Assembly: GCF_003269065.1 (NCBI RefSeq)
Contig: NZ_QLTA01000003.1
Span: 62,001-126,000 of the forward strand
DNA length: 64,000 bases
Reading direction: 5' to 3'
From: Paracidovorax anthurii
Lineage (GTDB): Bacteria > Pseudomonadota > Gammaproteobacteria > Burkholderiales > Burkholderiaceae_C
Under the pieces are notes generated by a model. The model saw only the letters and a list, made by a program, of their open reading frames with translations, had not been told where the DNA came from and made no database searches. Shown piece by piece: positions 60,640 to 62,654 of this stretch. The position numbers and the translations under genes were made by a program. How positions within the stretch are numbered: the stretch's first letter is position 1; each line of letters begins with the position of its first letter.

Positions 60640-61209
60640 ATGCCTCCCGCCCCCACGCAACTGCCCACCAGCCTGCAGACGTTCGGCGACATCAGCCGGC
60701 TGCTGCGCGAGGGTGTCGCGGACGAGGATTCGCGGGAGTTCCGCGATGCCGTTACGGCGCTGTCGGGGCTGGTCGAGCAGGCGGTGCAGATCCGCAGGGC
60801 GCCCGGGGCCGACCCGCAGGCCGTGCTGGGTTGTGCCGACCAATTGCTGCGCGCCGCGCGCGAGCACCAGCGGTTCCTGACCGGCCTGGGATCGGCATGG
60901 CACGCCCTCTACGAATTCTCCGCCTACGAAGGGGCCATGCGCCAGCTCGTGCGGGCGGTCGCGGCGTGGCAGCAGGCGCTGCAGCGCCGCAGCCGCAACG
61001 AGGCGCCGTGCTTCGGTGCCTTCGAGCGGCAGGCCTGGCGGGTCTTGGGAGAAGCCGTGCTCCTGATCGACATGTACGGGCAGGGCGGCCAGGGCCCGAG
61101 CGAATTGCAGAGCCTGCTCGCCGGCACGCTGGCGGGCCACCCGCCGCCGCGGCGCTGGTGGGGGCGGCTGGGCGACTGGCTGGCCTTGCGCGGGCGGGCC
61201 CGCCGGTAG
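60640..61209 (+). CDS. hypothetical protein
   Basis: A 189-residue protein I do not recognise. It looks cytoplasmic and mostly helical (SRLLREGVADEDSREFRDAVTAL, YEGAMRQLVRAVAAWQQALQRRS), ends in a basic Trp/Arg-rich tail (PPPRRWWGRLGDWLALRGRARR, about 168-189) and contains one Cys pair only by spacing. It begins 38 bases after tldD in the same direction, with no strong ribosome site. Codon use and the length of the frame suggest a real gene. Confidence 0.6.
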   Translation: MPPAPTQLPTSLQTFGDISRLLREGVADEDSREFRDAVTALSGLVEQAVQIRRAPGADPQAVLGCADQLLRAAREHQRFLTGLGSAWHALYEFSAYEGAMRQLVRAVAAWQQALQRRSRNEAPCFGAFERQAWRVLGEAVLLIDMYGQGGQGPSELQSLLAGTLAGHPPPRRWWGRLGDWLALRGRARR

Positions 61210-61319
61210 TCCGTCCACGGCACGCGGGGCCGGTGTGGGCGGATGCCGCGCCGCGTCTGTCGCCCTCGCGCAACGCGATGAAATGTCGCGGCACGGAAAA
61301 GAGTGCTACATTGCCACGC

Positions 61320-61379
61320 ATGCAGATTCGCAGCGCGTTTTATTTTTGGTCCTTTTGGTTCTCTGTCCCTGGCGGATGA
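61320..61379 (+). CDS. aroG leader peptide rich in Phe, Tyr and Trp
   Basis: ATG at 61320, 19 codons and a TGA at 61377-61379. The product contains FYFWSFWF: seven aromatic residues in eight consecutive codons (four Phe, one Tyr, two Trp), which covers all three end products that control DAHP synthase. Such runs are the hallmark of leader peptides used in ribosome-mediated attenuation, as in trp and phe operons. It is followed by competing RNA hairpins and a terminator before aroG. Confidence 0.8.
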   Translation: MQIRSAFYFWSFWFSVPGG

Positions 61380-61460
61380 GAGGTTAGCGCGCAACCACCC
61401 CTGAAAGCACCTACCCCCCACAACCGCCGACGCTGAAAAGCCCGGCGGTTTTTGTTTTTT
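61366..61460 (+). promoter_or_regulatory. aroG attenuator: pairing segments and terminator
   Basis: Downstream of the leader codons, GGCGG (61371-61375) can pair with CCGCC (61424-61428) as an antiterminator, while GGTT (61382-61385) can pair with AACC at 61393-61396 or 61422-61425. The alternative is the terminator AACCGCCG (61422-61429) with CGGCGGTT (61443-61450). Ribosome stalling at the aromatic codons would favour one fold over the other. Confidence 0.65.
61422..61460 (+). terminator. Rho-independent attenuator terminator before aroG
   Basis: Perfect 8-bp GC-rich stem (61422-61429 with 61443-61450), 13-nt loop, then TTTGTTTTTT. It lies 49 bases before the aroG start, in its own leader, so it must be regulatory rather than the end of the previous gene. 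Confidence 0.85.
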
Positions 61461-61508
61461 CCGGTCCCCGATTTTTTTCCTACCGATCTACCTCACGAGG
61501 AAGCAGCC

Positions 61509-62654
61509 ATGACGGCCCAAGCCCACCCCGCCAGTCCCGCCAGCGATGCCTGGTACCGCCACGTCGAGAAAACCAGCCAGACCGACGACGAACGTATCAA
61601 GGACATCACCGTGTTGCCTCCTCCCGAACATCTCATCCGCTTCTTCCCGATCCGGGGCACGGCGGTGGAAACGCTGATCTCCCGCACGCGGCAGCGCATC
61701 CAGGACATCATGGCCCGCCGCGACGACCGCCTGCTCGTGGTGATCGGCCCCTGCTCCATCCACGATCCGGCCGCCGCCCTGGAATACGCCCGCCGCCTGC
61801 AGCCCGTGCGCGCCCAGTACGCAGACACGCTGGAGATCGTGATGCGCGTCTATTTCGAGAAGCCCCGCACCACCGTGGGCTGGAAGGGCCTCATCAACGA
61901 CCCCTACCTCGACGAGAGCTACCGCATCGACGAGGGCCTGCGCATCGCGCGCCAGCTGCTCATCGACATCAACCGCCTGGGCGTGCCGGCCGGCAGCGAG
62001 TTCCTCGACGTGATCTCGCCGCAGTACATCGGCGACCTCATCAGCTGGGGCGCGATCGGCGCACGCACCACCGAGAGCCAGGTGCACCGCGAGCTGGCTT
62101 CCGGTCTCTCGGCGCCCATCGGCTTCAAGAACGGCACGGACGGCAACATCCGCATCGCCACCGACGCGATTCAGTCCGCGAGCCGGGGCCACCACTTCCT
62201 CTCGGTGCACAAGAACGGCCAGGTGGCGATCGTCAACACCCAGGGCAACCGCGACTGCCACGTGATCCTGCGCGGCGGCAAGACCCCCAATTACGACGCG
62301 GCCAGCGTGGCCGCCGCCTGCAAGGATCTGGAGGCGGCGAAGCTGCCGCCCTCGCTCATGGTGGACTGCAGCCATGCCAACAGCAACAAACAGCACGAGC
62401 GCCAGCGCGACGTGGCGCGCGACATCGCGGGCCAGATCGCGGGCGGATCGCACAGCATCTTCGGCGTGATGATCGAGAGCCATCTGGTGGCCGGCGCGCA
62501 GAAGTTCACGCCGGGCAAGGACGACGCCTGCGCGCTCGAATACGGCAAGAGCATCACGGACGCGTGCCTGGGCTGGGACGACTCGCTGGGCACCCTGGCC
62601 GAGTTGTCCGAAGCCGTGGCGGCCCGCCGCAACGCGATGCCCCTGGCCGCCTGA
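61509..62654 (+). CDS. aroG: 3-deoxy-7-phosphoheptulonate synthase, class I alpha
   Basis: First enzyme of the shikimate pathway, joining phosphoenolpyruvate and erythrose 4-phosphate. The 381 residues contain VVIGPCSIHDPAAALEYA (about 79-96, metal-binding Cys), FEKPRTTVGWKGLINDP (about 117-133), GAIGARTTESQVHRELASGLS (about 182-202), KNGTDGN (about 208-214), HKNGQVAIVNTQGN (about 236-249) and VDCSHANSNK (about 285-294). ATG at 61509 has GAGGAA upstream; the in-frame start at 61452 falls inside the terminator. Regulation is probably by the attenuator at 61320-61460 as well as by feedback inhibition. Confidence 0.96.
   Translation: MTAQAHPASPASDAWYRHVEKTSQTDDERIKDITVLPPPEHLIRFFPIRGTAVETLISRTRQRIQDIMARRDDRLLVVIGPCSIHDPAAALEYARRLQPVRAQYADTLEIVMRVYFEKPRTTVGWKGLINDPYLDESYRIDEGLRIARQLLIDINRLGVPAGSEFLDVISPQYIGDLISWGAIGARTTESQVHRELASGLSAPIGFKNGTDGNIRIATDAIQSASRGHHFLSVHKNGQVAIVNTQGNRDCHVILRGGKTPNYDAASVAAACKDLEAAKLPPSLMVDCSHANSNKQHERQRDVARDIAGQIAGGSHSIFGVMIESHLVAGAQKFTPGKDDACALEYGKSITDACLGWDDSLGTLAELSEAVAARRNAMPLAA

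Follow-up and report, generated by a model that had tools for sequence, protein, structure and literature searches.

The window analysed here, a stretch of 64,000 nucleotides from Paracidovorax anthurii, contains the DAHP synthase gene aroG, whose product matches TIGR00034 with 532 bits (cut-off 173) and a stricter AroG model with 544, below the cut-off of 568 for that model. Between tldD and aroG, on the aroG strand, lies an ORF of 189 residues (60640-61209) for which no Pfam or NCBIfam match was found and which ends 110 nt upstream of a much shorter ORF. This short ORF encodes 19 residues from an ATG at 61320 to a TGA at 61377-61379 and contains, as residues 7-14, the run FYFWSFWF with seven aromatic residues. 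It is followed by a hairpin with a T tract, the end of which, at 61460, is located 49 bases upstream of the aroG ATG at 61509 (Table 1). The initial annotation had read these elements as an aromatic leader peptide and an attenuator controlling aroG, a reading that conservation and predicted pairing support.

Table 1. Features of the aroG leader region and their positions in the window.
Feature	Position	Strand	Basis
Extended -10 promoter element TGCTACATT; distance to the leader ATG, 7 nt	61304..61312	+	Conserved; putative promoter activity
Leader peptide ORF, MQIRSAFYFWSFWFSVPGG and stop codon	61320..61379	+	ORF list, shuffle test, conservation in relatives
Segment 1 (UUCUC and GUCC), partner of segment 2 and 5' strand of the protector hairpin	61359..61368	+	Folding, 78 leaders
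Segment 2 (UGGCGG, then GAGAGG), antiterminator arm overlapping the leader stop codon	61370..61383	+	Pairs with segment 3
Segment 3 (AACCGCCG), 5' arm of the terminator and partner of segment 2	61422..61429	+	Folding, alignment
Segment 4 (CGGCGGTT), 3' arm of the terminator, plus T tract	61443..61460	+	Stem energy, alignment
aroG, DAHP synthase, gene proposed to be regulated	61509..62654	+	TIGR00034, PF00793

Control of DAHP synthase is best known from the enterobacterial regulators TyrR and TrpR. Searches of the window's genome for Trp_repressor (PF01371) and for the TyrR-type HTH family (TIGR04381) returned no match, with the E. coli positive control matching in each case. The same genome encodes a second DAHP synthase (L002, G000:C35:26591-27646), which is 55% identical; no aromatic leader was found upstream of it.

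An ORF of this composition is rare by chance. We looked for ORFs of 8-45 residues that begin with ATG and have 7 aromatics in 10. Among 20,000 dinucleotide shuffles of a 299-nt region, a single one contained such an ORF, and at a relaxed 5 aromatics in 10 the leader is the sole such ORF on both strands of the 64-kb window. Coordinates and rarity thus bear out the 19-residue ORF with FYFWSFWF described in the initial annotation.

To place the leader among its relatives, we turned to the family of the window's genome, referred to here as the source family. AroG is present in 198 of 200 genomes of this family, and a named collection contributed at least 80 further AroG loci. A total of 111 loci were gathered and, with the L002 paralogue set aside, 110 aroG-like loci were read. 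The ORF, a GGCGG arm and a terminator were curated at 86 of these, with an aromatic score of at least 5 except for L042 and L052, which were set by hand. Phe and Tyr occur in all 86 curated leaders and Trp in 75, in a set chosen partly by aromatic content. The leader of L052 is degenerate, with His replacing several aromatics (..RYHFWHFHIQH..). Four loci (L075, L097, L101 and L106) look real but diverged and were left out of the curated set, and 20 of the 110 are without such a leader (L055, at a contig edge, L060-L062, L064, L065, L073, L077, L082, L083, L089, L102-L105 and L107-L111). Read by eye, the Polynucleobacter loci (L060-L062) have lost both the leader and the intergenic space, so that aroG directly follows tldD. 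In L089, on a contig labelled as an Anaerolineae MAG, the DAHP synthase gene is preceded by an aromatic ORF (MSRYFSFFSWYGYF..) and by an inverted repeat of another kind; this is possibly a separate invention or a mis-binned contig.

A covariance model built from 71 of the 86 curated loci gave one match in the window's genome and found the module in 194 of the 200 family genomes (176 of the 179 good ones), some of which had supplied training sequences. All 40 family matches whose position was compared lie on the AroG strand, 29-96 nt before the AroG match. The closest named relative among the matches listed is Paracidovorax konjaci, with an AroG 95% identical and the leader MPIRSAFYFWSFWFSVPGG. 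The upstream alignment proposed in the initial annotation thus finds the aromatic ORF, the antiterminator arm and the terminator kept together in the family and in part of the order; relatives retain both the aromatic ORF and the alternative pairing, the absence of which had been named there as evidence against an attenuator.

Phe codon use in the leader differs from that of the neighbouring genes. In the window, TTT makes up three of the four Phe codons of the leader (61338-61361) and none of the 25 Phe codons in aroG, tldD and the ORF between them. Among the 86 curated leaders, the Phe codons before the last one are TTT in 231 of 299 cases, compared with only 80 of 675 Phe codons in the aroG genes at the same loci, which prefer TTC. 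This bias could mean slower reading of UUU, avoidance of structure, or both. The last Phe codon is TTC in 60 of 71 cases, as expected if its bases also serve the RNA fold, and Trp directly precedes the last aromatic residue in 57 of the 86 leaders. Between close pairs, the run shows 653 synonymous and 1217 non-synonymous codon changes; the counts by codon position are 1268 at position 3, 1036 at position 2 and 453 at position 1. The synonymous and non-synonymous counts give no clean coding signal, as one aromatic residue often takes the place of another and non-aromatic residues also enter the run. Conservation of the ATG, the frame and the aromatic content is therefore what the case for coding is built on.

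Upstream of the leader, a TGNTANNNT-type extended -10 element ends 6-9 nt before the ATG in 63 of the 65 loci examined among L001-L076 (Comamonadaceae and near kin), and in 46 of the 65 it reads TGCTACATT. For L021, which has two in-frame ATGs, the second was taken as the start, and this accounts for its 14-nt gap. A Shine-Dalgarno match of at least 4 bases is absent from 150 of 155 leaders. Given the spacing of the -10 element to the ATG and the lack of a Shine-Dalgarno sequence, we predict that the leader in the source family probably starts at the first base of its transcript, a point that the initial annotation had missed. In the full set of 155 leaders the extended -10 element was unrecognised in 52 and placed elsewhere in others, so the leaderless arrangement is not common to all families.

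In the window RNA, all 8 bp are matched in the terminator stem between AACCGCCG (61422-61429) and CGGCGGTT (61443-61450), which encloses an inner 3-bp stem and is followed by the T tract TTTGTTTTTT. With -17.1 kcal/mol and a z-score of -4.3, this hairpin agrees with the perfect 8-bp terminator and U-run that the initial annotation had placed before aroG. The competing complementary segments, given there without coordinates, could also be located: UGGCGG at 61370-61375 is able to pair with CCGCCG at 61424-61429, and the resulting 2:3 helix has a predicted energy of -16.3 kcal/mol (z -1.9). The whole leader RNA folds little better than its shuffles (z -1.4). The protector hairpin formed by segments 1 and 2 is, on its own, at chance level in the window (-7.9 kcal/mol, z -0.3), whereas folding across relatives supports it: among 78 mutually related leaders, the modelled sequestration of segment 2 is 0.49, against 0.32 with the coding part shuffled, and the same shuffle raises 2:3 pairing from 0.29 to 0.52.

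Since the upstream gene at 60640-61209 shares the strand of the leader and stops 110 nt short of it, the hairpin could in principle terminate the upstream transcript or act as a constitutive damper, with the short ORF left untranslated. A conserved promoter-like element separates that gene from the leader, the ATG and in-frame aromatic run recur across families, and the terminator arm has a matching arm within the ORF; in view of these features, we regard such a role as extremely improbable.

The arrangement of the switch segments relative to the peptide is well conserved. In 84 of 86 loci, 8-17 nt separate the end of the aromatic run from GGCGG, and GAGAG follows GGCGG in most curated loci. 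We examined the reading frame of this arm in 141 loci, after dropping 10 of 151 (three without the terminator pattern and seven without an exact GGCGG, among them several in which the arm is retained but shifted or paired through G-U). GGCGG occurs in frame 0, 1 and 2 relative to the leader in 57, 7 and 77 loci, respectively, and its retention in differing frames points to selection on the RNA rather than on the peptide. In an alignment of 71 sequences, 99.8% of cells are paired in the terminator stem and 96.7% in the 2:3 helix; most stem pairs are invariant and hence uninformative for covariation. At the sixth pair, both sides are changed in 12 sequences for 3:4 and in 9 for 2:3, which exceeds all 500 shuffles, while in the same alignment neither the number of pairs with two-sided changes nor the number of pair types for 2:3 is above shuffles. 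The sixth bases of arms 2, 3 and 4 vary jointly, as C-G-C in 55 of the 141 loci, T-A-T in 33 and A-T-A in 2; they are T-G-C in 12, and the sixth pair fails in 36 of 141 for 2:3 and in 3 of 141 for 3:4, all counts that ignore sequence relatedness. The terminator stem of L202 has a swapped pair.

We modelled a stalled ribosome as a mask whose downstream edge lies 12 nt beyond the first A-site base, on a transcript extending up to segment 3. Folding in stalled and unstalled states had been suggested in the initial annotation. In this model, averaged over 86 loci, the predicted probability of the 2:3 helix is 0.98 for a stall at the penultimate aromatic codon and 0.28 for naked RNA. It falls to 0.51 at the last aromatic codon and to 0.18 and 0.09 one and two codons past it, and ranges from 0.68 to 0.96 for stalls 3-9 codons before the last aromatic. 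For the window, stalls between codon 4 and the second Trp codon give 0.90-1.00, those at the last Phe and beyond give 0.00, and naked RNA gives 0.15. This fall is mostly a matter of geometry, with the mask crossing segment 2, so the model speaks for a fitting spacing rather than for stalling itself. Some loci deviate: the 2:3 helix prevails even without a ribosome (0.87-1.00) at, for example, L013, L023, L033 and L081, and early-run stalls give low 2:3 in, for example, L007 and L012. Pairing of segment 3 drops from 0.98 to 0.59 once the RNA between the ribosome and segment 3 is shuffled.

On the strength of its parts, their conservation and the predicted pairing, we consider it very likely that this module is a ribosome-mediated transcription attenuator controlling aroG, and infer its transcription start, translation, stalling, termination and induction as follows. 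Transcription would start at or beside the leader ATG, and a ribosome would load onto the 5' end of the leaderless message. If Phe-, Tyr- or Trp-charged tRNA were scarce, this ribosome would stall in the aromatic run, covering segment 1 and leaving segment 2 (GGCGG..GAGAG) open. Free segment 2 could then pair with segment 3 (CCGCC), no terminator would form, and aroG would be transcribed. With all three charged tRNAs plentiful, the ribosome would either cover segment 2 at the stop codon or depart and allow 1:2 to form; segment 3 would pair with segment 4, and transcription would stop near 61460.

One named group of Burkholderia, Caballeronia and Paraburkholderia loci has a nearly constant peptide (MSAKFYFYFFW..), a constancy that would suit a sensor based on nascent-peptide arrest, in which the aromatic peptide within the exit tunnel would respond to a free aromatic amino acid as its ligand and the arrest would set the RNA fold. 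Such an arrest, with Trp as ligand, is known from TnaC. Across families, however, the aromatic character is kept and the sequence is not. Moreover, an arrest in the run triggered by excess would be expected to leave segment 2 open and so increase aroG, the opposite of what suits a biosynthetic gene. We consider arrest sensing very unlikely.

Beyond the source family, the covariance model matches 115 of 399 genomes of the order Burkholderiales at E 0.01. We read 82 of the order-level matches, 71 with AroG downstream and 11 without; 8 more were fetched and left unread, and the remainder rest on their E-values. The 11 matches without AroG (L186-L196) are all weak, with E-values of 6.8e-4 to 8.7e-3, and each is the sole match of its genome, so that at most 104 genomes stand. 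Most of these 11 look like ordinary terminators and were rejected as leader modules. At positions 72-222 of L187, an aromatic leader-like ORF (..YFYWY..) and a GC-rich terminator precede a gene other than aroG, and may be an attenuator of that gene. At class level, 6 of 274 genomes match, three of them belonging to the source family; L202 and L203 have AroG and an aromatic leader, with a GTG start in L203, and L204 is a match without AroG.

As a control, we inspected 40 module-less aroG upstream regions from 39 genomes of the order, none of which has an aromatic ORF followed by a terminator. Six contain one part only, or both in inverted order. In L210 a terminator precedes a weak aromatic ORF; weak aromatic ORFs that lack a terminator occur in L234, L240 and L243, and terminator-like stems that lack an aromatic ORF in L233 and L237. 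The lack of an intact pair in these regions indicates that the module is usually either whole or absent.

The leaders of other families (n=65) are a fairer sample of amino acid content than the curated 86, bearing in mind that they were found by a model itself trained on aromatic leaders. Phe is present in all 65, Tyr in 61 and Trp in 25, the last count having been lowered from 26 because the ORF picked at L172 was wrong and the true leader there lacks Trp. By family code, Trp occurs in 9 of 9 leaders in f23, 3 of 3 in f3, 1 of 7 in each of f4 and f8, 2 of 8 in f11 and none of 6 in each of f20 and f44. The leaders of L176, L181 and L201 were picked with GTG starts. Two loci with AroG, L182 and L184, did not pass the aromatic filter; the degenerate leader of L184 has one remaining Phe codon, and its hairpin elements are still present. 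The proposal of the initial annotation that one leader senses Phe, Tyr and Trp is therefore in keeping with the source family, in which Trp codons are common, and does not extend to the order as a whole: sensing of three amino acids would be a clade trait.

The enterobacterial leaders trpL and pheL (Rfam Trp_leader and Phe_leader) combine codons for the end product with 1:2, 2:3 and 3:4 pairings and a terminator before the structural gene. The aroG leader resembles them in its codon-sensing peptide, alternative pairings and terminator, and differs in that each of them senses one amino acid and controls other genes. Several regulatory amino acids per leader are known from the ilvGMEDA and thr leaders, which share the reading of multiple products; theirs are branched-chain amino acids or Thr and Ile, without aromatic signal codons. 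Searching window positions 61150-61600 against Rfam at E up to 5 returned two unrelated weak matches, both far below their gathering scores, and 20 relatives gave none at the gathering threshold. A plasmid collection gave no match.

Among published candidates, one close in design is uORFC-13-1 before aroF of Acholeplasma, a predicted uORF in which a U run codes for one or more Phe residues ahead of a terminator, described from 24 sequences of the genus Acholeplasma and environmental DNA (PMC8632094). As far as the accessible part of that source goes, it shares a Phe-coding uORF and a terminator before a DAHP synthase gene with the aroG leader, and differs in having a ribosome-binding site and in that no mixed aromatic run is described for it. 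Attenuators of aroF in E. coli were proposed in 1980, and RNA motifs have been predicted before aroF and aroH in Shewanella (PMC2659441). These proposals likewise place a DAHP synthase gene under a leader RNA; in the portions of these sources available to us they concern gammaproteobacteria, with Tyr-tRNA as the signal sensed at aroF, and no leader of mixed aromatic codons is described. Conserved complementary triples, noted in proteobacterial attenuators in the accessible text of PMC1262725, are also seen in the aroG leader. DAHP synthase is not mentioned in the available sections of a survey of terminators before genes (PMC2965389), nor do those of PMC3102044, PMC4833913 and PMC7377471 contain anything on an aroG leader. 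The Bordetella sRNA S17 was ruled out as a published relative, as it is placed between a glycosyltransferase gene and coq7 in the excerpted text of PMC11722255.

The trpL transcript of Sinorhizobium meliloti begins with the ATG of its leader ORF, according to the accessible part of PMC7298713. This leaderless start is like the one predicted for aroG, whereas trpL senses Trp only, precedes trpE(G) and belongs to alphaproteobacteria. The leader RNA and peptide of this system, rnTrpL and peTrpL, are reported in the same text to act in trans, and by parallel the terminated aroG leader RNA or its peptide might be a small regulator in trans, possibly on top of attenuation. Outside the switch segments, the aroG leader RNA varies in sequence and length among relatives, which argues against such a role, and we give it very little credence.

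The initial annotation knew of no published description, and we likewise found no aroG leader peptide or attenuator of Burkholderiales in the open-access literature covered by our searches. The mechanism is classical; what is probably new is the combination of gene and bacterial group, the mixed aromatic signal and the probable leaderless start. We tentatively propose a broader reading, which we place just short of even. The module would represent an undescribed attenuator family of Burkholderiales, in which a single leaderless leader responds to Phe, Tyr and Trp charging as an OR gate and so controls entry into the aromatic pathway in genomes without TrpR or TyrR, both of which are unmatched in the window's genome. 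Clades would have retuned the module by losing Trp codons with the RNA switch kept, and translation from the first base would take the place of the pausing by which classical attenuators keep ribosome and polymerase in step.

Entry into the aromatic pathway is gated by DAHP synthase, and neither TyrR nor TrpR was matched in the window's genome. Many relatives of Comamonas and Burkholderia carry a leader with Phe, Tyr and often Trp codons together with a hairpin, by which a stalled ribosome most likely switches the pathway on when these amino acids are short. As leaders occur naturally with and without Trp codons, and with and without a promoter that places the ATG at the start of the transcript, codon choice, codon position and leaderless coupling can be tested directly. 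If this proposal is true, a large environmental, plant- and animal-associated group of bacteria would gate the aromatic pathway by one RNA switch that reads two or three of its end products.
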